In this document: positions 869 through 27,855 of the stretch, in pieces
Numbering within the stretch: the first letter of the stretch is position 1
How the letters are laid out: every line of letters starts with the position of its first letter
From: Halomarina oriensis
GTDB taxonomy: Archaea > Halobacteriota > Halobacteria > Halobacteriales > Haloarculaceae
Assembly (NCBI RefSeq): GCF_009791395.1
Contig: NZ_WSZK01000041.1
Location: forward strand, 1 to 33,784
Direction of reading: 5' to 3'
DNA: 33,784 nucleotides
Program-made: the position numbers and the translations under genes
The notes under the pieces: model-generated
The model's database searches: none
What the model saw: only the letters and a program-made list of their open reading frames with translations
What the model was told of the DNA's origin: nothing

Positions 869-1501
869 TCAGAAGCCGTCGAGTCGGGACTGTTCGGCCG
901 CCGCGAGTGCGTCCTCGCTCGTCTTCCACGACGCCCGTGCACACGAGGGGAGGACGCCGTGTTCCTCGACGTACTCGCCGAGGAACTGCCGCGTGGTGGG
1001 GTCGCTCGGGTAGCCGCTGCCCACGTCACCGAACCGAGCGGAGAGCGCCGCGAGTACCGCGTCGCGGTCGACCTTGGCGACGATGCTCGCGGCACCGACC
1101 AGCGGGTTCGTCGCGTCCGCACCGTGTTCTGCGGTCACCTCGACGGCGGCCGTCACCCGGTCTCCGACCCGTCGGGCGAAGCGGTCGGCGTCAGCATCAC
1201 AGGCGTCGAGCAGTCCACGGCCCGTCGCCTCGGCGTCCTCGATGGCTCGTGCGTGGGCGACGACGGTCAGCGTGTTCATGTCCTCGTCGCCGTCGATACG
1301 CTCGGGCGTGACGTGGGCGACACCGACGCCGAACTCCGGGTGGGCACCGAGCGCACTCGCTATCTCCTCGCGTCGGTCCGGGGCGACGCGTTTCGAGTCG
1401 TCGACGTCCGCCGGGAGCGCCGCGACTGGCCCCGCGACACACGCCGCGACCATCGGTCCCAGGACCGGCCCTCGCCCCGCTTCGTCGACGCCGAACTCCA
1501 T
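869..1501 (-). CDS. rnhB: Ribonuclease HII
   Basis: This is a 210-residue type 2 ribonuclease H, which cuts the RNA strand of RNA-DNA hybrids, including single ribonucleotides in DNA and leftover primers. The N-terminal FGVDEAGRGPVLGP carries the catalytic Asp-Glu pair. DSKRV, the NPLVGAASIVAKVDRD block and the GSGYPSDPTT motif follow in the usual order. Longer starts in the same frame exist at 1540 and 1552, but a TTTACG box at 1523-1528 lies 26 nt upstream of 1501. This fits a leaderless mRNA starting at the ATG of MEFGVDEAG, where the family normally begins. It is divergent from the HTH_10 gene to its right. Confidence 0.95.
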   Translation of the reverse strand: MEFGVDEAGRGPVLGPMVAACVAGPVAALPADVDDSKRVAPDRREEIASALGAHPEFGVGVAHVTPERIDGDEDMNTLTVVAHARAIEDAEATGRGLLDACDADADRFARRVGDRVTAAVEVTAEHGADATNPLVGAASIVAKVDRDAVLAALSARFGDVGSGYPSDPTTRQFLGEYVEEHGVLPSCARASWKTSEDALAAAEQSRLDGF

Positions 1502-1522
1502 ATCCGGCCCGCGGTGGCGAGG

Positions 1523-1530
1523 CGTAAAGT
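1523..1530 (-). promoter_or_regulatory. TATA-like promoter element of rnhB
   Basis: On the minus strand the sequence reads ACTTTACG, centred 26 nt before the ATG at 1501. That spacing is typical of leaderless haloarchaeal transcripts and supports 1501 over the two longer possible starts. Inferred from position and base composition only. Confidence 0.5.
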
Positions 1531-1684
1531 CGTTGCTCATGTGGTTCCGCACCGATGATAGGTGGCCGACAGGTAGATACGCCGGCGTCCACAGGAGTCG
1601 ACACAGGACGGGGACGCGTCCACGGTTCGCCGCGGGCGTCGGGTGCCCCGAACGGTCGCAGTGACCTCGTCAGTCCAGCCATCT

Positions 1685-2425
1685 ATGAGCCCAGACACAC
1701 CTGGGAAGCGACCCCACGGTACGGCGTCGCTTCCGACGACGCGCGAGGACGTGACCGACGGTCGAGTCCACTCGGACCCCACCGTCGCCGAACTTCGACT
1801 CCGGGCGGCCGCGTTCGCGCTCGCCCAGACGTTCGACCGTCGTCCGACGCTGAACGTCCGTGTCGAGCAGGTGGCGGCGAGTCGCCCGACCCGGCCGTTC
1901 ACCTCCGTCTGGCTCTCCGACACGGACGTCGATGCCGCGCTCGACGCGCTGGCGGACGACCCGAGCGTCGGCGTCGAGGCGGTGGTGACCCGACGGCAGG
2001 GGTCGGCCCTCTGTGAACTCGCCTTCCCGCGCCGGGTGTCGGTGGTCGTCGACGTCGTCACCAGTCGGGCGGGGACGGTGCTGTCCGCGACGGCGACCGG
2101 CGGGGCGTGGTCCCTCCGCATCCGCTATCCGACCCGCGAGGCGCTGTCGGAGACGGTCACGGCGCTCGACCGGTTCGGTGTCGACCCGACACTCTCCCGC
2201 GTCGGCTGTCGGAGCGGGTCACCGGTCGGCGACCTCACCGAGAAACAGCGCCAGACCGTCGCCACGGCCTTCGAGCGTGGCTACTTCGAGATTCCTCGGA
2301 AGGTGTCGCTGACGGAACTCGCCGCCGACCTCGACGTGACCCACCAGGCCCTCTCGGAACGGCTTCGCCGGGCCGAGCAGGCGCTGTTACGTGCCGAGTT
2401 CGGCGGTGCCTGCCCCGAAGCGTGA
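1685..2425 (+). CDS. Bat-type HTH_10 transcriptional regulator
   Basis: The product has 246 residues. The last ~60 residues (LTEKQRQTVATAFERGYFEIPRK, then SLTELAADLDVTHQALSERLRRAE) form the HTH_10 domain of the bacterio-opsin-activator family, including the TxQA recognition-helix pattern. The preceding ~150 residues resemble the associated region found between GAF/PAS sensors and HTH_10 in Bat proteins, but no GAF or PAS domain is recognisable, so this is a short, sensor-poor member. I chose the ATG at 1685 (MSPDTPGK); an in-frame ATG at 1643 would add 14 residues of low-quality sequence. Such proteins usually regulate transcription in response to small molecules, light or oxygen; the target here is unknown. 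Confidence 0.85.
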   Translation: MSPDTPGKRPHGTASLPTTREDVTDGRVHSDPTVAELRLRAAAFALAQTFDRRPTLNVRVEQVAASRPTRPFTSVWLSDTDVDAALDALADDPSVGVEAVVTRRQGSALCELAFPRRVSVVVDVVTSRAGTVLSATATGGAWSLRIRYPTREALSETVTALDRFGVDPTLSRVGCRSGSPVGDLTEKQRQTVATAFERGYFEIPRKVSLTELAADLDVTHQALSERLRRAEQALLRAEFGGACPEA

Positions 2426-2618
2426 CTGCGACGACGGGTCACTCCTCGCCGGTCGACCGGTCGTGGACGCCCCCTCACACGGGGTCGGCAGTCGTCGCCG
2501 AGACTCTCGCTACGGGGTCCGGCGGTCGGGGGAATCGACCGTACGTCGAACACCGCCGCCACACACCGCAGGAGAACAGAGGGGTCCCTCGTCCGGGACG
2601 CGGTCGAGTCGTCGCCGT

Positions 2619-2759
2619 TCAGTCGTCTGCCTGCCGAACGATACGGGTCGCCTCGCCGTCCACCCGGAGCGATCGGTCGTCGTCTTCTCGTTCGTCCGTC
2701 GTCTCGCGTTCGCCGAGCACGTAGTACGCGTACTCCTCGGTGGTGTTCCGGTGGCACAT
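2619..2759 (-). CDS. 46-residue acidic microprotein of unknown function
   Basis: A short frame begins MCHRNTTEEYAYYVLGERET and ends VRQADD before a TGA. It has typical haloarchaeal codon use (GAC, GAG, GTC), 16 acidic residues and an aromatic YAYYV stretch. It is preceded by a clear promoter: a CCTTATCTA box at 2795-2803 and a perfect 7-bp inverted repeat at 2774-2794 lying where transcription should start. The start codon is 40 nt from the TATA centre, giving an expected leader of roughly 14 nt. A well-formed promoter plus an open frame argues that this is a real gene. I recognise no domain; one Cys and one His near the N-terminus are not enough for a zinc site. Confidence 0.7.
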   Translation of the reverse strand: MCHRNTTEEYAYYVLGERETTDEREDDDRSLRVDGEATRIVRQADD

Positions 2760-2773
2760 TGTGGTACTACCTG

Positions 2774-2794
2774 TCACGGTGTTAGGAACCGTGA
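2774..2794. promoter_or_regulatory. Palindromic operator of the 46-residue gene
   Basis: TCACGGT (2774-2780) and ACCGTGA (2788-2794) form a perfect 7-bp inverted repeat with a 7-nt spacer, so the half-sites are 14 bp apart. It starts directly next to the TATA-like box (2795-2803, minus strand) and covers the expected transcription start. A protein bound here would block initiation, so a repressor site is the simplest reading. The cognate regulator is not identified. Confidence 0.55.
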
Positions 2795-2803
2795 TAGATA
2801 AGG
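2795..2803 (-). promoter_or_regulatory. TATA box of the 46-residue gene
   Basis: CCTTATCTA on the minus strand is the only A/T-rich element in the ~100 bp between Pus10 and this gene. It sits about 26 nt before the expected start inside the adjoining palindrome. Confidence 0.5.
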
Positions 2804-2867
2804 CTGACGGCCGTCTCCGGGAGGGGGAAGGTCCGTTCGGAAGTCCGCTCGTGTCGGTCGCGGTCGC

Positions 2868-4166
2868 TCAGTTCGCCGTCTCCCGGAAGAACTCGGGTCG
2901 CTCGAACGGTTCGTCCTCACCCTCGACGGACAGGACGTCCAGTGCCGTCACCACCGCACCGACGTCGAGCAGTCCGGCGAGCGACGGTTCGGTCCGGCCC
3001 TCGTCGCTGCTGACGAGTTCTTTGATGTAGAGGCCCCCTTCGCCGTGAACCTCGACGGTGGCGTGGTGGTCGTCTTCCAACTCGGCGGCGACGTCGTAGA
3101 CCGTCCGGGTACGGACGAGGTCCGCACGCCGGGCGTCGACGCGGTGTGGCGTGCGCTGTTCGACGGTCGTTCCACGCAACTCCTCGACGGCCGTCGCCAG
3201 CGCCGCCTCGTCGACCGGTGCGTCGAACTCGACCCGTGCCCGGTAGGTCTTCGAGGCGTCGAGTTTCTTCACCCGCTCGACCATCTCGTGGGTGGCGAGG
3301 CGAAGCCCCTCCACCTCCGCGCGGCCGTCGGCGAACGCGTTGACCTCGCGCTCCAGTTCTTCGACGTCCACGTCGCGCGTGCGTGGCTGCTTGACCTCGA
3401 TGACGAACGGCCGGCCCGGCCCGAGCATCAGGGCGTCGACGTCCTCGCGGCCCGCGCCGTGGAACGTCGCCTCGCTCCCGTCCATCGCCTCGACGACGGG
3501 CGGGGCGGTGAGCTGTTCGACGCTCGTCCCGTAGCGAAAGCCGGTGCCCATGCAGGCCTCGCACTCCTCGCCGCGTTTGATACCGGTCTGGTTGCAGTCG
3601 GTACACGGCCAGCGCGTCTGGGGGATGTCACGGTCGAGTTTCCGGTAGCGCCCGTAGACGAACGCGGAGTTCACCTGCACCTCCAGTTCGTCCGTCGAGA
3701 GGTCGATGAGCACGAGCACGTCCGGGCGTTCGAGGTCGACCTCGGTGCCCGTCGCCTCGCCGATACGCTTGCCCACCTCGCGGTTGAACTCGTTGTTCAG
3801 CGTCTCGACACGCTCGTCGCTCTCCTCCTCGACCCCCGCGTCCTCTCGGAGGAACTGCTCGTTCTCTTCGAGCAACGGCGAGACGCGCGTCCCGACCTGG
3901 TAGGTGTCGAACGCCCACGGTTCGAGCGCGGCGACGGCCCGGTCCGCGAACGTCCCGAATCGCTCGCACTCGCCCTCACAGACCCAGCACTGTTCGTCCG
4001 GTTCCTCGAACGGGTCGTCGACGGTCAGCGCGTGGGCCGTCCGCATCGCCCGGCCCCGTTCGGCGTTGGTGAGGCCGAACGAGCGGTCGGCGACGAGTCG
4101 CCCGAGACACGAATCACAGAGCGGCCCCGTCGCCAGCGCCCGCTCCGTCACCTCGATGAGGTCCAT
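2868..4166 (-). CDS. pus10: tRNA pseudouridine(54/55) synthase Pus10
   Basis: The 432-residue product converts U54 and U55 in the T-loop of archaeal tRNAs to pseudouridine. An N-terminal zinc module has Cys17/Cys20 (CDSCLGRL) and Cys60/Cys63 (CWVCEGEC), followed by a THUMP-like region. The family signature WPCTDCNQTG...CEACMGTGF precedes the catalytic domain. Its GREDVDALMLGPGRPFVIEV contains the catalytic Asp of pseudouridine synthases. I chose the ATG at 4166 (MDLIEVTERAL) because the upstream extension in frame is low-complexity and unlike the family. The gene is divergent from the DUF389 gene. TrmY, which methylates pseudouridine 54, is encoded later in this window. Confidence 0.95.
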   Translation of the reverse strand: MDLIEVTERALATGPLCDSCLGRLVADRSFGLTNAERGRAMRTAHALTVDDPFEEPDEQCWVCEGECERFGTFADRAVAALEPWAFDTYQVGTRVSPLLEENEQFLREDAGVEEESDERVETLNNEFNREVGKRIGEATGTEVDLERPDVLVLIDLSTDELEVQVNSAFVYGRYRKLDRDIPQTRWPCTDCNQTGIKRGEECEACMGTGFRYGTSVEQLTAPPVVEAMDGSEATFHGAGREDVDALMLGPGRPFVIEVKQPRTRDVDVEELEREVNAFADGRAEVEGLRLATHEMVERVKKLDASKTYRARVEFDAPVDEAALATAVEELRGTTVEQRTPHRVDARRADLVRTRTVYDVAAELEDDHHATVEVHGEGGLYIKELVSSDEGRTEPSLAGLLDVGAVVTALDVLSVEGEDEPFERPEFFRETAN

Positions 4167-6111: not shown

Positions 6112-7617
6112 CTACAGCTCCGGGAAGTACCGCCCGTGGAAGTCGAACGGGATGGCGTGCGGGACGGCCGCCCGCGCTCGCTCCTCGAAGGACTCGCCGT
6201 CCAGCACGACGAGCCACGAGTGCCCCGCCGCTTCGTCGAGTTCGACCGCCAGCACGAGGCCGTCGTCCTCGGGTGCGTCGAGCGGCGGCGACCCGACGTC
6301 GCGTGGGTCGTTCGGTTCGGTCCGCGGGACGAACACCGGTTCGCCGACGTGACCGTCGTGAGCCCGGTGAGTCCAGGACTCGCCCGTCTCGACGTCCACC
6401 TTCACGAGTCGCGTGGGCCACTCGGTCACCGGCTGGTCGGTCTCCTGTGCGTAGGCGTAGCGGTAGGGCCGACAGCGTCGGGCCGGGGACGCGGTCGGCA
6501 GCGAGGTGCCGTCGTGGAGTCGCTCGTGGTCGACCGTCGCACCGTCCGCCCGGAGCGACAGGACGAACCGGTCGAGCGACCCGCCGAACACGCCGAGGTC
6601 ACCCGACCGGAGGCGCTCCAACGAGAGCGCGGCTAGCGACTCGGCGTCGGGGACCGTCTCCACGTCGACGACGAGTTCCGAACCGGGACGGGGGCGTTCG
6701 TCGGTGTCGTCGTCAGCGACCGTGGCGGGGTCGCCCGCCGGTGCGGGTCGCCCCTGTACGTCACGCTCGTAGGCGTCGACGTGGTGGAACCCGAAGAACG
6801 CCTCCGTCGTCGTCGTGGCGACGACGCCGCCCGACCGTCGGTCGAGGACGACGAACCGGGTTCCGCGTTCGGGCGTCCAGCGGAAGGCGTCGACGAACGC
6901 GCCCGCCGAGGTGAGCATCTCCAGCGGGTCGACGACGAACGGGAACTCCGTCAGCACGACGTAGTTCGGGGTCAGCGCGAAACTGTGCATGTACGCCGGT
7001 TCGTCGACGGGGACCGACCCGACGTGTCGTCGACTCGTGGCGTCGTCCGTCTCGAAGACGTGGTACCGTGACGGACGCCCGAACTCCGTCTCGAAGCTGA
7101 CGAACCGACCCGTCCACGGGTCACGCTGGAGGTGGGCACAGGCCAGTTGGCCGTGCGGTTCGTCGCGGTCGTACCGGACGTGGCCGAGCGTGTCGAGCGT
7201 CTCGGGGTCGAACGCGACGGCACGGGGCGTCTCGGTGAGGGCGAGATACCGGTCGCCGAACCGTTCGGCGACGATGTTCGTGTTGTCGTAGGGGGCGTCG
7301 ACGAGTAGCGACTTCAGTTTGCGCGCGACGGAGGCGTTCCCCGTTGCGAAGCCGTCCAGTCCCTCGCCGCCGCGGGCGCGTTCGTAGCTCTCCGTCCGGA
7401 GGAACCGGTTCCGATAGCGGACGCGCCCGTCGTCGAACGAGAACCGGTGGAGCATGGCGAGTCCGTCGAACCAGTGGTCGACGCCGGTGCCGGCGGCCTC
7501 GAACAGCGCGGGGCCGTTGCGAATCAGCGACCCGTCGAGCCACGTCGGGAGGTTCCCCTCGACGGGCAACTCGGCGTCGGCCTCGGTGTCGAGCGTGTGG
7601 AAACCCAGCGTACCCAT
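6112..7617 (-). CDS. Carotenoid oxygenase family protein (non-haem iron)
   Basis: This 501-residue protein is the full length of the RPE65/carotenoid cleavage dioxygenase family, which cuts carotenoid or related polyene double bonds with a four-His iron centre in a seven-bladed propeller. The four ligands are visible: His162 in AHLQRDP, His211 in YMHSFALTPNYVVLTE, His278/279 in FGFHHVDAYE and His494 in PFDFHGRYF. The N-terminal GSLIRNGPALFE and HWFDGLAML blocks also match. A GGTTTTG-like box about 26 nt upstream of the ATG at 7617 suggests a leaderless mRNA. A retinal-forming role is possible, since haloarchaea use retinal in rhodopsins, but substrate and cleavage site cannot be read from sequence. 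Confidence 0.9.
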   Translation of the reverse strand: MGTLGFHTLDTEADAELPVEGNLPTWLDGSLIRNGPALFEAAGTGVDHWFDGLAMLHRFSFDDGRVRYRNRFLRTESYERARGGEGLDGFATGNASVARKLKSLLVDAPYDNTNIVAERFGDRYLALTETPRAVAFDPETLDTLGHVRYDRDEPHGQLACAHLQRDPWTGRFVSFETEFGRPSRYHVFETDDATSRRHVGSVPVDEPAYMHSFALTPNYVVLTEFPFVVDPLEMLTSAGAFVDAFRWTPERGTRFVVLDRRSGGVVATTTTEAFFGFHHVDAYERDVQGRPAPAGDPATVADDDTDERPRPGSELVVDVETVPDAESLAALSLERLRSGDLGVFGGSLDRFVLSLRADGATVDHERLHDGTSLPTASPARRCRPYRYAYAQETDQPVTEWPTRLVKVDVETGESWTHRAHDGHVGEPVFVPRTEPNDPRDVGSPPLDAPEDDGLVLAVELDEAAGHSWLVVLDGESFEERARAAVPHAIPFDFHGRYFPEL

Positions 7618-9003: not shown

Positions 9004-10191
9004 ATGACAATCGACACCGCCGTCGTCCTCGCGGCGGGTGAGGGCAATCGACTCCGCCCGTTGACCCACAACAGACCGAAGCCGATGCTCCCGGCGGCGA
9101 ACCGTCCCATCCTGGAGTACGTCCTCGACGCGCTCGTCGACGCCGGTGTCGAGTGCCTCTGTCTGGTCGTCGGCTACAAGCGCGACCGGGTACAGGACCA
9201 CTTCGGCCCGACCTACCGCGGCGTCCCCATCGACTACGTCGTCCAGAAGAAACAGCTGGGCAGTGGCCACGCCCTCCAGCAGGCCGCGGGCGCGGTCGAC
9301 GACTCGTTCGTCGTCGTCAACGGCGACCGGGTCATCCAGGCGAAGATGGTCTCGGCGGTCATCGACGCCCACGAGGACGCCCCGGCGGCCCTCGCGGTGC
9401 TCGAACACGGCAACGCCCAGCGCTACGGTGCGGTCGACGTCGAGAACGGGCAGATCACCGCGCTCGTCGAGAAACCCGACCGTCGGGAGTTCCGCCTCAT
9501 CAACGCCGGCGTCTACGCCTTCGACCGCAGCATCTTCGAGGTGCTCGCCCGCACCGAGCGCATCGACGGCACTCTCCCGCTGACGGCGGCCGTCGAGTCG
9601 CTCGTCGACGAGCGGAAGGTCCAGGCGGTTCGCACCAACGGCCTGTGGGTCGACGCGACCTACCCGTGGGACCTGCTGGAGGTCGCCCGCGAGGTCCTAC
9701 GTCACGGCCTCGTCGAAGCGCCCGAACGCGACGCGGACGTGTGGGTCGCCGACAGCGCCCGCATCGACGACGACGCGACCCTCCAGGGACCGGTCGTCGT
9801 CGGCCCCGACAGCGAGGTCGCGGCCGGTGCGGTCGTCGGCCCGAACGTCGCCCTCGGTCGGAACGCGACGGTCGGCGCGAACGCCACCGTCGAGGGGTCG
9901 GTGCTGGACACCGACGCCCGCGTGGGGGCCGCGAGCGTCCTCATCGACTGCGTGACGGGCCACGACGTCCACCTCGGACCGGCGACGGTCGCTCCGGGCG
10001 GCCCCGCCGACGTGCAGGTCGGCGACGCCATCCACCGCGGCGAACGACTCGGTGCCGTCTTCGGCGACCGAGTCCGTGCGGAGGGCGGCGTCAACTGTGC
10101 ACCCGGCGCACTCGTCGGGACGAACGCGAACCTTCGGACCGGCGTCGTCGTCTCCGGGCAGGTGCGGGCCGACAGCGAGGTGATCCGCTGA
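9004..10191 (+). CDS. GlmU-like bifunctional sugar-1-phosphate nucleotidylyltransferase/acetyltransferase
   Basis: This is a 395-residue two-domain enzyme. Residues ~1-235 are a nucleotidyltransferase with the VVLAAGEGNRLRPLTHNRPKPM signature, FVVVNGDRV as the metal-binding motif and VEKPD. Residues ~245-395 form a left-handed beta-helix of hexapeptide repeats (VVVGPDSEVAAGAVVGPNVA...) as in acyltransferases. Archaeal relatives make UDP-GlcNAc or UDP-GalNAc from the amino-sugar phosphate, or dTDP/UDP-glucose. The direct overlap with glmS favours UDP-GlcNAc. ATG 9004 is preferred to an in-frame GTG at 8980, which would add only eight residues. The stop TGA overlaps the glmS ATG. Confidence 0.88.
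   Translation: MTIDTAVVLAAGEGNRLRPLTHNRPKPMLPAANRPILEYVLDALVDAGVECLCLVVGYKRDRVQDHFGPTYRGVPIDYVVQKKQLGSGHALQQAAGAVDDSFVVVNGDRVIQAKMVSAVIDAHEDAPAALAVLEHGNAQRYGAVDVENGQITALVEKPDRREFRLINAGVYAFDRSIFEVLARTERIDGTLPLTAAVESLVDERKVQAVRTNGLWVDATYPWDLLEVAREVLRHGLVEAPERDADVWVADSARIDDDATLQGPVVVGPDSEVAAGAVVGPNVALGRNATVGANATVEGSVLDTDARVGAASVLIDCVTGHDVHLGPATVAPGGPADVQVGDAIHRGERLGAVFGDRVRAEGGVNCAPGALVGTNANLRTGVVVSGQVRADSEVIR
10177..10185 (+). promoter_or_regulatory. Internal ribosome binding site for glmS
   Basis: GAGGTGATC inside the end of the GlmU-like gene matches the 16S 3' end and lies 5 nt before the glmS ATG at 10191. It supports coupled translation of the two enzymes. Confidence 0.6.
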
Positions 10192-11969
10192 TGTGTGGCA
10201 TCGTCGGCTGTGTCGGTCGCCGCGACGAGACGCTCTCGACACTGGTCCACGGCCTCTCGAAACTGGAGTACCGCGGCTACGACTCGGCGGGCGTCGCACT
10301 CGTCGACGACGACCTGGACGTGGTGAAACGTGCGGGAGAACTCGACGACCTGCGGGCCGCCCTCGACGGCCGGTCCGTCGCCGGTCGGGTCGGCATCGGC
10401 CACACGCGCTGGTCGACCCACGGGCCGCCGACCGACGCGAACGCGCACCCCCACCGCGACTGCTCCGAACGCGTCGCCGTCGTCCACAACGGCATCATCG
10501 AGAACTACGAGGAACTCCGTGCGGAACTCACCGAGGCGGGCCACGAGTTCCGCTCGGACACCGACTCCGAAGTCGTCCCCCACCTCGTGGAGGACTACCT
10601 CGCGGCGGGCGAGGAGACGGAGGCCGCGTTCCGTCGTGCCGTCTCACGGCTGGAGGGCAGTTACGCCATCGCCGCCGTCGTCGCCGGCGACGACCGGGTG
10701 TTCGCCGCCCGCGAGGACTCGCCGCTCGTCCTCGGTCTGGACGACGACGCCTACTACCTCGCCAGCGACGTCCCCGCGTTCCGGGAGTTCACCGACCGCG
10801 TCGTCTACCTCGAAGACGGCGAGTTCGCCGTCGTCTCGGCCGACGAGTGGCGCGTCACCGACGCCGACGGGCAGGTCCGGGACAAGGCGGTCGACACCGT
10901 CGAGTGGTCGCCCGAGGAGACCGGCAAGTCCGGCTACGACCACTTCATGCTCAAGGAGATTCACGAACAGCCACGCTCCCTGCGCCAGTGTCTCCGCGAG
11001 CGCGTCTCGGAACTCGGCGGGACGGTCGACCTCGACGTGGACGTAGCTCCCGACGGCGTCCAGTTCGTCGCCTGTGGCACCTCGTATCACGCCGCGTTCT
11101 GTGGGGTCAGCCTGTTCCACGAGGCGGGCATCCCCGCACAGGCGTTCCTCGCCAGCGAGTACGCCACCTCGCCGCCGCCGGTCGACGGCGACCTCGTCGT
11201 CGGCGTCACGCAGTCGGGCGAGACCGCGGACACGCTGAACGCGCTCCGGGAGGCCGAGCGACGCGGCGCGGAGACGCTCGCGGTGACGAACGTCGTCGGG
11301 TCGACGGTCTCTCGTGAGTGCGACCAGACGCTCTACATCCGTGCCGGCCCCGAGATCGGTGTCGCCGCGACCAAGACGTTCTCCTCGCAGGTGCTCGCGC
11401 TGGCGCTGCTCGTGCTCTCACAGACCGGCGCGAGCAGACAGGACGTGGCCGCCCTCCGGGACCTGCCGGGGAACGTCCAGCAGGTGCTCGACGAGTCCAA
11501 CGCCGAGGAGATCGCACAGGCGTACCACGGCTCCGACGCGTACTTCTTCATCGGACGCGGGTTGCACTACCCCGTCTCGCTGGAGGGGGCGCTGAAGTTC
11601 AAGGAGATCAGCTACGAGCACGCCGAAGGGTTCGCCGCCGGCGAGTTGAAACACGGGCCGCTCGCGCTCGTCACCGAGAACACGCCCGTCTTCGCCGCGG
11701 TGACCGGCGACGGCGAACTCGCACGCAAGACCATCGGGAACGTCAAGGAGGTCGAAGCGCGCGGTGCGCCCGTCGTCGTCGTCACCGACGGCCGGAACGA
11801 CGCGGCCCGGTACGCCGACCACGTGCTGGAGGTGCCCACGAGCGACGAACGGACGGCCGCTATCCTCGCCAACGTCCAGCTCCAGCTCGTGGCGTACCAC
11901 GCCGCCGACCTGCTCGACCGTTCCATCGACAAGCCCCGGAACCTCGCCAAGTCCGTCACCGTCGAGTAG
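10191..11969 (+). CDS. glmS: Glutamine--fructose-6-phosphate aminotransferase (isomerizing)
   Basis: The 592-residue product makes glucosamine-6-phosphate from fructose-6-phosphate and glutamine, the first step to UDP-GlcNAc. Cys2 of MCGIVGCVG is the glutaminase nucleophile, and the RWSTHG and HNGIIENYEEL blocks of the N-terminal amidotransferase follow. Two SIS domains come next, with CGTSYHAA, TQSGETADTL and EGALKFKEISYEHAEGF. The end, LAKSVTVE, is the usual family C-terminus. It overlaps the GlmU-like gene as TGATG and has a strong internal ribosome site. No phosphoglucosamine mutase is present in the window. Confidence 0.97.
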   Translation: MCGIVGCVGRRDETLSTLVHGLSKLEYRGYDSAGVALVDDDLDVVKRAGELDDLRAALDGRSVAGRVGIGHTRWSTHGPPTDANAHPHRDCSERVAVVHNGIIENYEELRAELTEAGHEFRSDTDSEVVPHLVEDYLAAGEETEAAFRRAVSRLEGSYAIAAVVAGDDRVFAAREDSPLVLGLDDDAYYLASDVPAFREFTDRVVYLEDGEFAVVSADEWRVTDADGQVRDKAVDTVEWSPEETGKSGYDHFMLKEIHEQPRSLRQCLRERVSELGGTVDLDVDVAPDGVQFVACGTSYHAAFCGVSLFHEAGIPAQAFLASEYATSPPPVDGDLVVGVTQSGETADTLNALREAERRGAETLAVTNVVGSTVSRECDQTLYIRAGPEIGVAATKTFSSQVLALALLVLSQTGASRQDVAALRDLPGNVQQVLDESNAEEIAQAYHGSDAYFFIGRGLHYPVSLEGALKFKEISYEHAEGFAAGELKHGPLALVTENTPVFAAVTGDGELARKTIGNVKEVEARGAPVVVVTDGRNDAARYADHVLEVPTSDERTAAILANVQLQLVAYHAADLLDRSIDKPRNLAKSVTVE

Positions 11970-20656: not shown

Positions 20657-21793
20657 TCAGTTCTCGGCCGACTCGTCGTCGCCGTCGAGGTCGATGACGA
20701 CGGTACCGGAGTCACCGGCGTCGAGCGTCACCGTCTCGTAGGCGAGGAGTTCCTGGTCGTCGGCGTTGGCGCGGACGAACGTCGTGTCGTCGCCGGGCAG
20801 TTCGTAGCCCGCAAGCGTGAGCGTGACGCTCTCACAGTCGGCGTCGTCGTCGACGCTGACCGTCAGAGTGACGTCGCCGCTCTCGTCGTCGTAGCTGACG
20901 GGCGTGTAGCTGACGTGACAGCCCGCGAGGGACTTCGTCACGTTCTCACCGGGCACCATGTGGCTCCCAGTGACCGTGCCGTCCGCGAGGACGGTCTGGG
21001 CCTGGAGCAGGCGACCCTGCGTGCCGTAGAAGTCGGGCGCGTCGTCCTCGTCGTCGCCGTCGACGCCGAGCGTCTCGATGACGTCACCGGCCGCGACGTC
21101 GATCTGGTAGGCCGGCATCTCGGTCGACGCTCCGTCGTCACCGGTGCTGGACTCGTCGGAGTCGTCCGTGCCGCTCTGGTCGGACTCGTTCTCGTCGTTC
21201 GACTCCGACTCCTCGTCCGTCGTCTCGGAGTCGTCGGTGTCCGTCGAGTCGTCGCTCTCCTCGCCGTCCGACTCGTCGCTGTCGGTCGAGTCCTCGGACC
21301 CGTCGTTCTCGGTCTCGTCTCCGGACCCGTCGCCCGACTCGAAGGAGTCCTCGCAGGCGACCCCGTCGTCGTCACGGTCGAGGTCGTTCGGGTCGCTCGG
21401 GTCCTCGTCGTAGGTCGTCTGTGCCTCCTCCTGGGTCTCGAAGTCCTCGCAGTTCAGATCGTCCGACGGGTCGGTATCCTCGGAGTCCTCCGAGGAGTCG
21501 TCGGTCGAATCGTCGCCCTCGCTACTGTCCCCGTCGTCACTGCTTCCCTCGTCGCCCGACGGGAGACTCTCACACGCCTCACCGTCGTCGTCCCCGTCGA
21601 GGCCGTTCGGGTCGCTCGGGTCCTCTTCGAGGACGGCCTGCGCTTCTTCCTGTGTCTCGAAGTCCTCACAGTTCAGGTCGTCTCCGTCCTGTGCGAACGT
21701 CGCGCCGGGCGTCACCGCAGTCCCGACGCTGACCGCCCCGACGAGCAGGGCGAACGATACCAGCACCGCCATCGATCTACGAACTCCTGTCAT
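20657..21793 (-). CDS. Secreted acidic protein with two Excalibur calcium-binding domains
   Basis: The product has 378 residues. An N-terminal Sec signal ([20 protein letters not shown]) ends around TFA-QDGDD. Two Excalibur domains follow (~39-75 and ~112-147), each with [12 protein letters not shown] and the calcium loop [15 protein letters not shown] or [15 protein letters not shown], with paired Cys. An extremely Asp/Glu/Ser-rich linker (~148-227) leads to a C-terminal beta-rich domain (~228-378) with two or three further Cys. No lipobox or membrane anchor is seen, so the protein is probably released or held in the cell surface layer. Excalibur domains bind Ca2+; the role in haloarchaea is unknown. 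Confidence 0.87.
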
Positions 21794-22052: not shown

Positions 22053-22073
22053 GTTACTCGGCAAGTGAGTAAC
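22053..22073. promoter_or_regulatory. Operator-like palindrome at the start of the sulfoquinovose operon
   Basis: GTTACTC (22053-22059) and GAGTAAC (22067-22073) form a perfect 7-bp inverted repeat with a 7-nt spacer, the same geometry as the site at 2774-2794 but a different sequence. TTTACTCG at 22040 repeats the half-site. It covers the predicted transcription start and ends one base before the ATG, as expected for a repressor site. Confidence 0.55.
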
Positions 22074-22074
22074 T

Positions 22075-23244
22075 ATGAGCATCCTCGTCACCGGCGGAGA
22101 CGGCTACATCGGGTGGCCGACCGCACTGCGGATCGCATCGCGCACGGACGACCGTGTCGTCCTCGTCGACAACTTCGGTCGTCGAGAGTGGGTCTCCTCG
22201 GTCGGTTCGAAGAGCGCGACCCCCATCGCGGATATGGACGAGCGCATCGACGCCGCCAGCGAGGTCCACGGCCTCGACAACCTCTCGTTCGTCGAGGGCG
22301 ACCTCGTCGACCGGGCGGTCGTCGACCGCATCCTGCAGGTCCACGAACCCCACACCGTCGTCCACACGGCCGCTCAGCCGAGCGCGCCGTACTCACAGAT
22401 CAACGGCGAGCGTGCGAACTTCACGCAGCACAACAACCTGCAGGCGACGCGCAACCTCGTCTGGGGGCTGAAGGAGAACGACATGACCGACACGCACCTC
22501 GTCGAGACGACCACCACGGGCGTCTACGGTGCGCCGTCGTTCCCCATCCCCGAGGGTGACGCGACGATGGAGAACATGGGGGAGAGCGACACGGTCCCGT
22601 ATCCGGCGATGGCCGGTAGCTGGTACCACCTCACCAAGAGCCACGACGCGGCGAACCTGCGTCTGGCGCACAAGCAGTTCGACATCCCCGTCTCGGACGT
22701 CCGGACGGCCATCGTCTACGGCACCGAGACCGAGGAGACACGCGAGGACGACCGCCTGAAGACACGCTTCGACTTCGACTACTACTTCGGCGTCGTCGCC
22801 CACCGCTTCGCGGCACAGGCGGTCGCCGGCTACCCGCTCACCGTCTACGGGAAGGGCGAGCAGCGCAAACCGTTCGTCTCGCTCGAAGACACCGTCGAGG
22901 GTCTCGCGCGGCTCGCCCTCGCCGACCCCGACGAACGCGAACACGACCACGAGGTCTATAACCAGGTCACCGACCCCATCAGCATCGTCGGCATGGCCGA
23001 GACTATCGCCGAGGTGGCCCGCGAGTTCGACTACGACGGCGAGGTCATGCACGTCGAGAACCCACGCGACGAGGACGAGACCCACCAGATGGAGATCGTC
23101 AACGACCGCTACATGAGCCTCATCGGCGAGCAGCGCACGACGTTCGAGGAGGGGATCCGCGACGTCTTCGAGACGCTGAGCCAGTACGAGAACACCATCG
23201 TCACCCACGAGGACCGCTTCCTCCCCAGCGTGCTGGAGGAGTAG
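22075..23244 (+). CDS. UDP-sulfoquinovose synthase-like SDR (SQD1/Agl3)
   Basis: The 389-residue enzyme is of SQD1 length. It has the NAD-binding GGDGYIGWPTAL loop, a long N-terminal insertion characteristic of SQD1, AAQPSAPYS, TTTTGVYGAP and the catalytic YHLTK. The C-terminal half has GKGEQRKPFVSLEDTVE. SQD1 makes UDP-sulfoquinovose from UDP-glucose and sulfite; the archaeal homologue Agl3 of Sulfolobus serves N-glycan synthesis. First gene of a three-gene operon, touching the next gene. The haloarchaeal end product (glycolipid, N-glycan or other) is not known from sequence. Confidence 0.88.
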   Translation: MSILVTGGDGYIGWPTALRIASRTDDRVVLVDNFGRREWVSSVGSKSATPIADMDERIDAASEVHGLDNLSFVEGDLVDRAVVDRILQVHEPHTVVHTAAQPSAPYSQINGERANFTQHNNLQATRNLVWGLKENDMTDTHLVETTTTGVYGAPSFPIPEGDATMENMGESDTVPYPAMAGSWYHLTKSHDAANLRLAHKQFDIPVSDVRTAIVYGTETEETREDDRLKTRFDFDYYFGVVAHRFAAQAVAGYPLTVYGKGEQRKPFVSLEDTVEGLARLALADPDEREHDHEVYNQVTDPISIVGMAETIAEVAREFDYDGEVMHVENPRDEDETHQMEIVNDRYMSLIGEQRTTFEEGIRDVFETLSQYENTIVTHEDRFLPSVLEE

Positions 23245-24192
23245 ATGGACGTCCTCGTCACCGGCGGTCTGGGCTACATCGGCAGCGTCCTGCTGCCGTT
23301 GCTGGACGGCGACGAGCGTGTCGACCGGGTCGCCGTCGTCGACAACCTCTCGCTCGGCTCGCCGCGCTCGCTGAAGGGGTCGCTGACCGACAGCATCGAC
23401 TTCCGTCGCGGCGACGTGCGCGAGTACGGCGACGTCGAGAACGCGATGCGCGACTGCGATACGGTCGTGCACCTCGCGGCCATCACGGGCGCATCGAGCA
23501 CCCACGACCGCCGCGAGGAGACGTTCGCCGTCAACTACGACGGCACCGAGAACGTGCTGACGGCGGCCGGGAAACTCGGCGTCGAGAACGTCGTCCTCGC
23601 GTCGTCGTGTAACCTCTACGGCCGCGCGGCGTCGATGGACCTCGACGAGACGGTCGAGGCCGACCCCATCAACCCCTACGCCGAGACGAAACTCCAGTCG
23701 GAGGACCTGCTCCGGGAGGCGATGGAGGAGTTCGGGATGGACGGCACCGCCCTGCGGATGGCGACGAACTACGGCGACTCTCCAGGGGTTCGGTTCAACC
23801 TCGTCGTCAACACGTTCGTCTTCCGGGCGCTCACCGACCGTGCGCTCACCGTCTACGGCGACGGCACGAACTGGCGGCCGTTCATCCACGTCCGGGACGC
23901 CGCTCGCGCCTACGCCCACGCCGCCCTCGAACCGGACGCGTGGGACGACGTCGTCTACAACGTCGGGTCGAACGAGGGTAACTTCCGGATATCCGACATC
24001 GCCGAGACCGTCAGCGAGGAGGTCGCTCCCGTCGACGTGACCTACCTCGAAGACGAACACCCCGGCCCGTCGTACCACGTGAACTTCGACCGTATCGCCG
24101 AGACCGGCTACGAGACCGAGTGGACGCTCCGCGAGGGAATTCACGACCTCGCGGACGCGTTCAGACCCGCAGACACTACCGCGACCCAATGA
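23245..24192 (+). CDS. NAD-dependent nucleotide-sugar epimerase/dehydratase (SDR)
   Basis: A 315-residue extended short-chain dehydrogenase. Its GGLGYIGS loop binds NAD, VVHLAAITGAS is the family motif, SSCNLYG holds the Ser position and YAETK the Tyr-Lys pair. GDGTNWRPFIHVRDAA is typical of nucleotide-sugar epimerases. The ATG follows the previous TAG without a gap, with GGAGG 5 nt upstream, so translation is coupled. It ends overlapping the third gene as ATGA. Substrate unknown; it probably works on the same UDP-sugar pool as its neighbours. Confidence 0.88.
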   Translation: MDVLVTGGLGYIGSVLLPLLDGDERVDRVAVVDNLSLGSPRSLKGSLTDSIDFRRGDVREYGDVENAMRDCDTVVHLAAITGASSTHDRREETFAVNYDGTENVLTAAGKLGVENVVLASSCNLYGRAASMDLDETVEADPINPYAETKLQSEDLLREAMEEFGMDGTALRMATNYGDSPGVRFNLVVNTFVFRALTDRALTVYGDGTNWRPFIHVRDAARAYAHAALEPDAWDDVVYNVGSNEGNFRISDIAETVSEEVAPVDVTYLEDEHPGPSYHVNFDRIAETGYETEWTLREGIHDLADAFRPADTTATQ

Positions 24193-25190
24193 GCGACACC
24201 GACCCCGCAGCAGACGCCAGCACCGCATCCGACTCCCCACACGTCGCCGTCACCGGCGCGGCGGGCTACATCGGCAGTCGCCTCGTCGCCGACCTCCAGC
24301 GCGAACACCCCGACTGGGAGGTGACCGCACTCGACAACTTCTATCTCGGGCAGGTCCGCTCCATCGGCGACAGCGACATCGAACACGTCGACATCCGTCA
24401 CCGCGAGGAGTTGGAAGCCGCACTCGACGGCGTCGACGCCGTCGTCCACCTCGCCGCACTCAGCGGCGTCCCCGACTGCGATGAGAACCCGGACCGCGCC
24501 TACGAGGTGAACGTGCAGGGCACCGAGAACGTCGCGTGGTTCTGCCGGAAGACGGGCGCGGCGCTCGCGTTCCCGTTCTCGATGGCGGTCATCGGCGACC
24601 CCGACGAGTTCCCCATCACGACCGACCTCGAACGCGACCCGCTGAACTGGTACGGGCGGACGAAGGTGCTCAACGAGACGGCCATCGAGTGGTACGCCGA
24701 CGGCGCGTTCCCCGCGAACATGTTCATGGTCGCCAACCTCTACGGCGAACACGAACTCGACGGAGCCACCGTCTCGAAGGGGACGGTCATCAACTTCTTC
24801 GTCAACCGTGCACTGGCGGGCGAGACGCTCACCGTCTACGAACCCGGCACGCAGTCCCGGAACTTCGTCCACGTCAAGGACGTCGCCCGCGCGTTCCGGC
24901 AGAGCACCGAACGCCTGCTCGACCAGCGTGCGGCGGGCGAGACGGGCGTCGAGAAGTACGAGGTCGCCACCGACGAGGACCCCAGCGTCGAGGCCATCGC
25001 CGAGACGGTCCAGCGCATCGCCCGCGAGGAGCGCGACGTCGACGTCGACATCGAACCCGTCGAGAACCCACGGAGCGGCGAGACGCTGGTGGACTCCTTC
25101 GAGGTCGACTGGTCGGCCGCCCGCGACCGTCTCGGGTGGGAGCCACGGGAGAGCGTCGAGGAGTCGATTCGCGGCCTGCTACGGGAGTAG
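24189..25190 (+). CDS. NAD-dependent nucleotide-sugar epimerase/dehydratase (SDR)
   Basis: The 333-residue third SDR of the operon starts at the ATG that overlaps the previous stop. A ~17-residue acidic/Ser-rich N-terminal extension precedes GAAGYIGSRL. VVHLAALSGVPDCDENP, FPFSMAVIGDP and YGRTK supply the family and catalytic motifs, and TQSRNFVHVKDVARAF matches sugar epimerases. It is paralogous to, but clearly diverged from, the second gene. Reaction unknown. The downstream neighbour is convergent, so the operon probably ends here. Confidence 0.87.
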   Translation: MSDTDPAADASTASDSPHVAVTGAAGYIGSRLVADLQREHPDWEVTALDNFYLGQVRSIGDSDIEHVDIRHREELEAALDGVDAVVHLAALSGVPDCDENPDRAYEVNVQGTENVAWFCRKTGAALAFPFSMAVIGDPDEFPITTDLERDPLNWYGRTKVLNETAIEWYADGAFPANMFMVANLYGEHELDGATVSKGTVINFFVNRALAGETLTVYEPGTQSRNFVHVKDVARAFRQSTERLLDQRAAGETGVEKYEVATDEDPSVEAIAETVQRIAREERDVDVDIEPVENPRSGETLVDSFEVDWSAARDRLGWEPRESVEESIRGLLRE

Positions 25191-25196
25191 CCGTCG

Positions 25197-25484
25197 TCAG
25201 TTCTCGCCGTCTCCGTCCACGACAGTCGCCGCGATAGCGAGCAGTTCGTTCTTCGTCAACCCACCACTGCCGCCCTCGGGGTCGTCGTCGTCGCGCTCAC
25301 CGATTCGCCAGCGGATGCCGGCGCGCATCTGCGCCTTCGAGGGCCGCGCCGCCGACTCGGAGAGATAGCCGAGGGCCACGGCGATGGCCTCCAACTCCTC
25401 TTTCGTGAACCCGACGTTCTCGATGCGTTCGTGCCGACCGACGGCCGTGCGAATGTCGTTGCGGAGTTCGTGGACGGTAGCCAT
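25197..25484 (-). CDS. 95-residue unknown haloarchaeal protein with duplicated motif
   Basis: A small acidic soluble protein. GFTKEELEAIAVAL (residues 25-38) and GLTKNELLAIAATV (75-88) repeat the pattern GxTKxELxAIA exactly 50 residues apart. They flank RPSKAQMRAGIRWRIGE and a Asp/Gly-rich stretch. This looks like two helix-start motifs of one repeated fold. No named family is recognised. It is convergent with the SDR operon, with a 6-bp gap, and lies between it and the aglF-like gene. Confidence 0.75.
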   Translation of the reverse strand: MATVHELRNDIRTAVGRHERIENVGFTKEELEAIAVALGYLSESAARPSKAQMRAGIRWRIGERDDDDPEGGSGGLTKNELLAIAATVVDGDGEN

Positions 25485-25564
25485 GGCGTCACTACTGCGA
25501 GTCGGGTGATGGAGCTTTGGAGTCGCGGACGGCGGAGCACGGGCCGTCGCCTCGTTGCCCGGTC

Positions 25565-26389
25565 TCAGGCGTCGTCGGCTTCGACCGATAGCTCCTCGTC
25601 GCCGTCCTCACCGTCGTTACCGTCCTTCTCGGCCTCTTCGGCCTCTTCGGCTTCCTTCGCGGCCGCTCGCGCTTCGCGTTCCTCGCGGAGACGGTTCTCG
25701 GCGCGGTCACGGTCCTCGGGGTAGCCCACGTCCGCTCGCCAGCCGTCCATCCGGATGGCGTCGATGGTCCGCCCGGACTGGAGCAGGAGGTTGATGGCGT
25801 CGGAGAGTTCGTACTCGTCGCGGTTCGACGGCTGGACGAGGTGACAGGCGTGGAAGATGGAGGGCGTGAACGTGTAGAACCCCGTCATCACGAGGTTCGT
25901 CGGCGGGTCCTCGGGTTTCTCCATCACCTCGACGATCTCGCCGTAGTCGTTGGTGTCACAGACGCCGTAGCGACCCGCTTCCTCCCACGGCACCTCCTCG
26001 ACGAGGAAGGCGGCGTCGGCGCGGTCTTCCTGCTGGCGGTTGACGACGTCCGCGAGGTTCGCGCTGAAGATGTTGTCCCCGAGGATGAGCATGAAGTCGT
26101 CGTCGATGTGCTCCTCGACGGTCAGCAGGGCGTGGGCCAGTCCCAGCGCCTCGCGCTGGTGGGAGTACGTGATGGGGATGCCCTCGTACTCGTCGCCGTA
26201 GTAGCTGATGATCTTCTCTTTCATGTAGCCGACGACGACGAGGAGTTCGTCCGCGCCGAGGTCGACGAGGTGGTCGAAACAGTGCGTGAGGATGGGCTTG
26301 CCGTCGACTTCGACCATCGCTTTCGGCTTGTCCTCGGTCAACGGACGGAGGCGAGTCCCTTCGCCCGCGGCGAGTACGACTGCTTTCAT
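25565..26389 (-). CDS. aglF: Glucose-1-phosphate nucleotidylyltransferase (AglF-like)
   Basis: The 274-residue protein has the sugar nucleotidyltransferase signature AVVLAAGEGTRLRPLTEDKPKAM, FMLILGDNIF (metal Asp), GRYGVCDTNDYGEIVEVMEKPEDP and DGWRADVGYPED. The nearest known function is Haloferax AglF, glucose-1-phosphate uridylyltransferase of N-glycan synthesis. The catalytic core ends near 235 and is followed by a charged Glu/Ala/Lys/Asp tail of about 40 residues that is probably disordered. A TTTTTACC box 28 nt upstream indicates a leaderless mRNA. Divergent from the aglM-like gene with a 161-bp shared control region. The gene symbol is by homology. Confidence 0.87.
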   Translation of the reverse strand: MKAVVLAAGEGTRLRPLTEDKPKAMVEVDGKPILTHCFDHLVDLGADELLVVVGYMKEKIISYYGDEYEGIPITYSHQREALGLAHALLTVEEHIDDDFMLILGDNIFSANLADVVNRQQEDRADAAFLVEEVPWEEAGRYGVCDTNDYGEIVEVMEKPEDPPTNLVMTGFYTFTPSIFHACHLVQPSNRDEYELSDAINLLLQSGRTIDAIRMDGWRADVGYPEDRDRAENRLREEREARAAAKEAEEAEEAEKDGNDGEDGDEELSVEADDA

Positions 26390-26412
26390 TACCTAGCGCG
26401 AAACGGCCCGCA

Positions 26413-26420
26413 GGTAAAAA
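26413..26420 (-). promoter_or_regulatory. TATA box of the aglF-like gene
   Basis: TTTTTACC on the minus strand, centred 28 nt before the ATG at 26389. Confidence 0.6.
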
Positions 26421-26516
26421 GATTCGACTCGGTTCACGACAGTCGGCGAACCGTTTCTCGGGGTAGTCGGTGGCTGACTCGGCGTACTGTGGCTCCTGGC
26501 GAACGATAACCACCTC

Positions 26517-26525
26517 CTTACTAAC
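26517..26525 (+). promoter_or_regulatory. TATA-like box of the aglM-like gene
   Basis: CTTACTAAC centred 30 nt before the ATG at 26551. Leader of a few nt expected. It supports 26551 and rejects an in-frame start 27 codons upstream. Confidence 0.5.
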
Positions 26526-26550
26526 CCGCCCGGTCTACTCGAACCCACCA

Positions 26551-27855
26551 ATGAACGTCTCCGTCGTCGGGAGCGGCTACGTCGGTACGAGCGTCGCCGC
26601 CTGTCTCGCTGACCTCGGCCACGACGTGGTCGCCATCGACATCGACGCCGACATCGTCGAGCGCATCAACGCCGGCGAGTCGCCCATCCACGAACCCGGC
26701 CTCCCCGAACGCATCGAGGAACACGCCGGGGGCCGCCTCCGCGCGACCACCGACCACGCCGCACTGCTCGACACCGACCTCACCTTCGTCGCCATGCAGA
26801 CGCCCTCCCGCGATGACGGCTCTATCGACCTCTCGGTCGTCGAAGCCGGCATGCGCGACGTCGGCGAGACGCTCGCCGAGAAGGAGGGCTACCACCTCGT
26901 CGTCGTCAAGTCGACGGTCCTCCCCGGTATGACCGAAGAACGGCTGATCCCCATCCTGGAGGAGGCCTCCGGGAAGACCGCCGGCGAGGAGTTCGGCGTC
27001 GCCGTCAACCCCGAGTTCCAGAGTCAGGGAACTGCGGTGGACGACTTCATGAACCCCGACAAACTCGTGTTCGGCACCGACGGGGACGCGCGGGCGCTCT
27101 CGTTGCTGAACGACCTCTACGACCCACTGGTCGAGCAGGCCGACGCACGAGCAGAAATCGTCGAGACGGGCCTCCGAGAGGGAGCGATGATAAAGTACGC
27201 CAACAACGTCTTCCTCGCGGCCAAGCTCTCGACCATCAACGAGATAGCGAACGTCTGCAAGGAGTACGGTGTCGACTCCTACGAGGTGAGCGAGGCTATC
27301 GGCCTCGACGAGCGCATCGGCGCGCCGTTCCTCCGCTCCGGTGCGGGGTGGGGTGGCTCCTGTTTCCCGAAGGACACCGACGCGCTCCGGGCCGCCGCCC
27401 GCGAGAAGGAGTACGACCCGGTCCTCCTCGACGCCGTCGTGACGGTCAACGACCGCCAACCCGTCAGGATGGTCGACTTCCTCGAACGCCACACCGACGT
27501 CGCGGGCAAGCGCATCGCGGTCCTCGGTCTGGCGTTCAAGCCTCAGACCGACGACATCCGTGGGTCGCGCTCGAAACTCGCCATCGAGGCGCTCGAAGCG
27601 CGCGGCGCACAGGTGGTCGCCTTCGACCCGACCGAAGCGGCCGACCACATGGCCGAGCAGTACCCCGACGTGGAGTACGTCGACAGCGCCGCCGCGGCCC
27701 TCGACGGTGCTCACGGCGCACTCGTCATGACCGACTGGCCGGAGTTCGCCGCCCTCGACGCCGAGTTCGACGCGATGGCCGACCCCGTCGTCGTCGACGG
27801 CCGCCGCATCGTCGAGCGCCGTGAGGGCATCGTCTACGACGGGTTGACCTGGTAA
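26551..27855 (+). CDS. aglM: UDP-glucose 6-dehydrogenase (AglM-like)
   Basis: The 434-residue enzyme oxidises UDP-glucose to UDP-glucuronate with two NAD. MNVSVVGSGYVG binds NAD, KSTVLPG and VNPEFQSQG are family motifs, MIKYANN carries the conserved Lys-Asn, and Cys271 of GWGGSCFPKD is the catalytic thiol. The C-terminal UDP-binding domain has LGLAFKPQTDDIRGS. It pairs functionally with the divergent aglF-like gene, as AglF and AglM do in Haloferax N-glycosylation. The product could supply hexuronic acid to surface glycans. The symbol is by homology. Confidence 0.92.
   Translation: MNVSVVGSGYVGTSVAACLADLGHDVVAIDIDADIVERINAGESPIHEPGLPERIEEHAGGRLRATTDHAALLDTDLTFVAMQTPSRDDGSIDLSVVEAGMRDVGETLAEKEGYHLVVVKSTVLPGMTEERLIPILEEASGKTAGEEFGVAVNPEFQSQGTAVDDFMNPDKLVFGTDGDARALSLLNDLYDPLVEQADARAEIVETGLREGAMIKYANNVFLAAKLSTINEIANVCKEYGVDSYEVSEAIGLDERIGAPFLRSGAGWGGSCFPKDTDALRAAAREKEYDPVLLDAVVTVNDRQPVRMVDFLERHTDVAGKRIAVLGLAFKPQTDDIRGSRSKLAIEALEARGAQVVAFDPTEAADHMAEQYPDVEYVDSAAAALDGAHGALVMTDWPEFAALDAEFDAMADPVVVDGRRIVERREGIVYDGLTW

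Follow-up and report, generated by a model that had tools for sequence, protein, structure and literature searches.

A Conserved Operon with an SQD1-like Gene in Halomarina oriensis and Other Halobacteriota: A Candidate Uridine Diphosphate-Hexosamine Module

This study was concerned with a three-gene operon in a 33,784-nucleotide (nt) stretch of Halomarina oriensis DNA (contig NZ_WSZK01000041.1), the whole of which is called the window here. The first gene (22075-23244, + strand) encodes a 389-residue protein (P0001), an SQD1-fold extended short-chain dehydrogenase/reductase (SDR) of a haloarchaeal clade marked by QPSAPYS / TTTGVYG. It is followed by the genes of two GalE-like extended SDRs, SDR2 (P0002; 23245-24192, + strand; 315 residues) and SDR3 (P0003; 24189-25190, + strand; 333 residues). 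The results are best explained if the three genes make up a single nucleotide-sugar module, of a type ancient in Halobacteriota, and this module is predicted to act most likely on a uridine diphosphate (UDP)-hexosamine. We tentatively favour a reading in which the most likely product would be a UDP-sulfoquinovosamine-type donor; the sulfonation, the substrate, the roles of the two SDRs and the acceptor are what we infer. A still more tentative possibility is that the operon is a UDP-sulfoquinovosamine synthase pathway, in which an SQD1-derived enzyme would work on a UDP-hexosamine with two dedicated SDR partners.

A preliminary description of the window had proposed a sulfoquinovose-synthase operon and a candidate new surface-sugar pathway. 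The analysis supports an operon for nucleotide sugars that is conserved and has ties to surface glycans, but the word "new" is too strong. An operon of SqdB and two GalE homologues, for which sulfolipids were considered, appears in the available text of a 2006 report on Haloquadratum walsbyi (PMC1544339), and it is apparently the same operon (the first protein of the J07HQW1 locus, L112, is 75% identical). The earlier account differs in that its available text treats the genes as sulfolipid genes and gives no evidence from residues, linkage or glycans. Four findings are new here: the signature of residues, the linkage to hexosamine genes, the occurrence outside haloarchaea and the connection with a sugar of Haloarcula hispanica.

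Conservation and Hexosamine Linkage of the Operon

Conservation was counted in one set of 145 haloarchaeal genomes. Gene order was mapped in 80 named loci with a gene caller written for this analysis; in low-GC loci it overlooks some genes. Of the genomes, 53 had the SQD1-like gene (26 of 59 genera), 51 had SDR2 and 55 had SDR3. The three genes occurred in nearly identical sets of genomes, mostly at adjacent coordinates, and their co-occurrence far exceeds chance. The preliminary description had named a lack of conserved co-occurrence as the result that would count against it; the neighbourhood search returned the opposite, in 51-55 of the genomes. The order SQD-SDR2-SDR3 was kept in most of the 80 loci, usually with gaps of a few nt. 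In the window the first gap is 0 nt, SDR2 and SDR3 overlap by ATGA (-4 nt) and all three genes lie on the + strand, which agrees with the coupling described earlier. Outside haloarchaea, in five Halobacteriota loci (L188-L192), two co-directional SDR genes follow the SQD1-like gene, and a TrmB-type gene lies upstream in divergent orientation. One of them (L191) has a continuous run of SQD-SDR2-SDR3-glmU-glmU-glmS.

Additional copies of the SQD1-like gene were also observed. Three lie in differing neighbourhoods on the Natrinema zhouii chromosome (L087, L088 and L130), and there are two each in Halobaculum saliterrae (L068, L069) and Halocatena pleomorpha (L089, L109). One genome has, besides an intact copy, a broken second one (G096:C55:56097-57253) with an in-frame TAG and split matches, adjoining an SDR2 copy that likewise carries a stop.

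The window also contains a pair of genes for hexosamine synthesis (9004-11969), which the preliminary description had missed. The first encodes a GlmU-type sugar-1-phosphate nucleotidylyltransferase/acetyltransferase (9004-10191, + strand; TIGR03992, 287.2 bits, slightly under the cut-off of 292.1) and the second encodes GlmS, glutamine--fructose-6-phosphate transaminase (10191-11969, + strand; TIGR01135, 722.5 bits, cut-off 418), about 10 kb from the operon. Since glmS was found in 130 of the 145 genomes, its presence is uninformative and its position is what informs. Of the 53 operon genomes, at least 29 had it within 12 kb of the SQD1-like gene, compared with about 0.7 expected under random placement, a comparison uncorrected for shared ancestry. 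In many relatives the distance to the operon was 0.1-11 kb, and glmU was a recurrent neighbour in other genomes. The placement of glmS varied by lineage (upstream, downstream and on either strand), which argues against a single frozen ancestral order. In addition, glmS lies no more than 2.5 kb from SDR3 in three genomes that have no SQD1-like match (G012, G095 and G126). With these recurrent partners, UDP-N-acetylglucosamine (UDP-GlcNAc) or UDP-glucosamine is a more plausible substrate than UDP-glucose or UDP-glucuronate.

Residue Signature of the SQD1-like Protein and Its SDR Partners

The first protein has the SQD1 fold. Its best solved relatives were SQD1 structures (1qrr, E 2e-73), and in Foldseek its model had a TM score of 0.90 to this fold compared with 0.64 for the next best. 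It resembles Agl3 of Sulfolobus acidocaldarius and plant and bacterial SQD1/SqdB in fold, length, nicotinamide adenine dinucleotide (NAD)-binding motif, catalytic Thr/Tyr/Lys and conserved His residues. It differs from them in its separate clade, in the replacement of Arg101 by Pro and of Met145 by Thr, in the two coupled SDRs and in the linkage to glmS/glmU. The split from the sulfoquinovose-synthase clade had 100/99 support and a branch length of 1.48 changes per column, in an unrooted tree with long branches flagged. The protein scored 348.8 bits against the 575 of the NF041015 equivalog cut-off, which is narrow, since only Sulfolobus passed among 14 controls.

Five residues of Agl3, His95, Arg101, Met145, Tyr182 and Lys186, are each essential, as Ala at any of them abolished activity (PMC4388408). 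The position of Arg101 is Pro102 and that of Met145 is Thr148 in all 62 full-length haloarchaeal members. Pro is also found in operon members outside haloarchaea, and one of these (L190/L154) has Met at the Met145 position. Arg was kept in 8 of 8 SQD1/SqdB/Agl3-like rows of the tree, and some plasmid SqdB-like rows have Leu or Ile in place of Met145. The equivalents of His95 and of the catalytic triad (Thr, Tyr-x3-Lys) are H97, T147, Y184 and K188, invariant in the 62 haloarchaeal members, and the clade also keeps Tyr151 and His185. The published fingerprint of UDP-sulfoquinovose synthases is [ST]MG...Yx3K (PMC8987622), and the haloarchaeal clade has TTG instead of [ST]MG. The acid/base pair of nucleotide-sugar 4,6-dehydratases ([ST]DE or [ST]DK) was found in none of the three operon proteins, which have TTG, SCN and SMA. 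Loss of Glu147, a residue that aids dehydration in Agl3, was also considered as evidence against sulfoquinovose synthesis and was dropped; the clade has Val, Ile or Leu there, but the S. meliloti SqdB homologue also has Val.

The missed cut-off, the separate clade and the invariant Pro and Thr weaken the label of UDP-sulfoquinovose synthase. The SQD1 fold of the preliminary "sulfoquinovose synthase" stands; judged by its residues, the label is unsafe for the haloarchaeal clade. A search of the genome of H. oriensis for a second, genuine SQD1-type gene found none. The 2015 study of Agl3 assigned the haloarchaeal proteins to cluster IV, a distant one, and did not decide whether differences in mechanism underlie its clusters (PMC4388408); the residue and linkage findings make that question concrete.

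A further SQD1-like protein outside haloarchaea (L183, 9459-10979) has the signature EISSAPYS and TMGEMG, with Met kept and neither Arg nor Pro. Its gene lies beside glmU-glmS-glmU and a TrmB-type gene. It may be a third subtype; its branch is long and its placement unsure.

SDR2 and SDR3 scored 113.7 and 101.4 bits, below the GalE cut-off of TIGR01179 (262.3 bits). Both keep Ser and Tyr-x3-Lys (Ser-Cys-Asn / Tyr-x3-Lys in SDR2) and, from these motifs, are catalytically plausible SDRs. SDR3 shares a C-terminal NPRxxET motif with the SQD1-like protein. The fold search with the SDR2 model gave many equally distant epimerases and dehydratases, including UDP-GlcNAc 4-epimerases, Cj1427 and Pal, and pointed to no specific function; the sequence-profile search with SDR3 likewise pointed to none.

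A Sulfonated Amino Sugar and Competing Readings

The case for sulfonation comes from Haloarcula hispanica. Its S-layer N-glycan is 6-sulfo-QuiN-(1,6)-[Glc-(1,2)]-Gal (QuiN, quinovosamine; Glc, glucose; Gal, galactose), and its membranes contain DolP-QuiNS, DolP being dolichol phosphate (PMC9943897). One genome of the set (G084) is H. hispanica ATCC 33960, as shown by an exact match to bases 1000-4000 of pHH400 at identical coordinates. It has the operon, the first gene of which is its sole SQD1-like match, with glmS 9.5 kb away and with aglM-aglF adjoining as in the window. The SQD1-like gene was present in 28 of 28 good Haloarcula genomes. In the open literature no paper was found that names genes for the 6-sulfo-QuiN of H. 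hispanica. That a producer of this sugar has a single SQD1-like gene, and has it in this operon, argues for sulfonation.

Under the favoured reading, GlmS and GlmU would supply a UDP-hexosamine to the SQD1-fold enzyme, SDR2 and SDR3, and the substrate pocket of the first enzyme would be remodelled by the changes of Arg to Pro and Met to Thr. The route would be the SQD1/Agl3 scheme transferred to an amino sugar: C4 would be oxidised with NAD, the C6 hydroxyl would leave to give a 5,6-ene, sulfite would add at C6 and C4 would be reduced. SDR2 and SDR3 may carry out an adjacent step, e.g. epimerisation at C4 or the processing of an intermediate in keto or ene form. The pathway would yield 6-sulfo-quinovosamine (sulfoquinovosamine) in UDP-activated form, with or without N-acetylation, to be loaded on dolichol phosphate and passed to S-layer N-glycans or polysaccharides. 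UDP-GlcNAc 5,6-dehydratases of such chemistry exist, namely TunA and Pen (PMC8987622). Like the proposed route, they apply SDR chemistry to UDP-GlcNAc via a 5,6-ene, and a second SDR, Pal, follows Pen. They differ in their motifs (TCE and TDK), lie outside the SQD1 clade and have no sulfite step.

Several points weigh against this reading. First, an enzyme that has lost the active-site Arg may just as well be one that does not use sulfite. Secondly, no assayed enzyme of the SQD1-like clade was found in the literature. Third, a PAPS (3'-phosphoadenosine-5'-phosphosulfate) reductase (PF01507, E <= 1e-15) was found in 0 of the 53 operon genomes, H. hispanica included; the family matched in 7 of the 145 genomes, all without the operon. 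As the match is absent even from H. hispanica, this marker neither supports nor excludes sulfonation. In addition, H. hispanica reportedly uses the free-amine QuiN. Lastly, GlmS and GlmU could be general nucleotide-sugar neighbours, AglF and AglM also being recurrent, and the linkage counts carry the uncorrected ancestry noted above.

Some of these points suit a UDP-hexosamine module without sulfonation, in which an SQD1-fold epimerase or oxidoreductase and the two other SDRs would make another UDP-amino sugar, e.g. a C4-epimer or keto derivative. This reading is less probable. It shares the glmS linkage, and it is consistent with the loss of an Arg expected near the added group, with the lack of PAPS reductase matches in operon genomes, with the likeness of the SDR2 model to UDP-GlcNAc 4-epimerases and with the TTG motif and the two SDRs all being without the dehydratase acid/base pair. 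However, genuine SQD1/SqdB enzymes are also without that pair, so dehydration is still compatible with its absence, and the 6-sulfo-QuiN of H. hispanica would be left without a candidate enzyme.

A plain UDP-sulfoquinovose synthase, using UDP-glucose and sulfite and accompanied by two epimerases of related function, has been the annotation since 2006 and is unlikely. The fold and the catalytic Thr/Tyr/Lys are kept, the neighbouring AglF makes UDP-glucose, haloarchaeal homologues were earlier grouped as UDP-sulfoquinovose synthases in cluster IV (PMC4388408) and the operon was called sulfolipid genes in the available text of PMC1544339. However, the Arg101 and Met145 on which Agl3 depends are Pro and Thr in 62 of 62 haloarchaeal members, the Arg being kept in the eight SQD1/SqdB/Agl3-like tree rows; the operon is linked to hexosamine genes; and the known sulfonated sugar of H. 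hispanica is QuiN, not quinovose. Sulfoquinovose has been reported in H. volcanii (PMC4343526). This control genome had no SQD1-type NF041015 match at E <= 1e-40, so its sulfoquinovose does not come from the SQD1-like family.

It is very unlikely that SDR2 and SDR3 remodel UDP-glucuronate from AglM, e.g. as a UDP-glucuronate 4-epimerase or decarboxylase, which the preliminary description had suggested as an alternative. The operon has AglM/AglF as neighbours in the window and in about 12 of 80 relatives, and UDP-glucuronate 4-epimerase and UDP-xylose synthase are among the many equally distant structural relatives, but aglM is not nearby in most operon loci. Outside haloarchaea the operon adjoins glmS/glmU, and the stretches read there showed no aglM.

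The acceptor of a UDP-sulfoquinovosamine-type donor may differ between lineages. The operon lies with glycosyltransferases, a flippase, WecB and a nucleotide-sugar dehydrogenase on a Natrinema versiforme plasmid, and with polysaccharide deacetylase and alkaline-phosphatase-family genes in Haladaptatus. These neighbourhoods make a polysaccharide the likely acceptor there, and in Haloarcula an S-layer glycan is likely. Should UDP-hexosamines be the substrate of the module, an annotation that is widespread in archaea is wrong. If sulfonation also holds, SQD1-type chemistry would reach a new class of substrates, the enzymes still missing for the sulfonated amino sugar in the S-layer glycans of archaea would be supplied, and that sugar would have candidate genes in H. 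hispanica, where genetic tools make their deletion feasible.

Other Features of the Window

The preliminary description had also placed an AglF/AglM pair beside the operon as suppliers of UDP-glucose and UDP-glucuronate, and both the identities and these roles were supported. AglF, UTP--glucose-1-phosphate uridylyltransferase (25565-26389, - strand), scored 433.3 bits against NF041313 (cut-off 400), and AglM, UDP-glucose 6-dehydrogenase (26551-27855, + strand), scored 716.3 bits against NF041297 (cut-off 670), so that both pass their NCBIfam cut-offs. Its statement that the window holds no glycosyltransferase, flippase or oligosaccharyltransferase agrees with Pfam scans of 10 further open reading frames, in which none was found. 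A small open reading frame of 95 amino acids lies between SDR3 and aglF (25197-25484, - strand). Directly upstream of the operon and divergent from it is a gene for a very acidic predicted secreted protein with Excalibur calcium-binding domains (20657-21793, - strand). Further away, the window encodes a homologue of the RPE65-family carotenoid oxygenases (6112-7617, - strand; Pfam PF03055, 372 bits).

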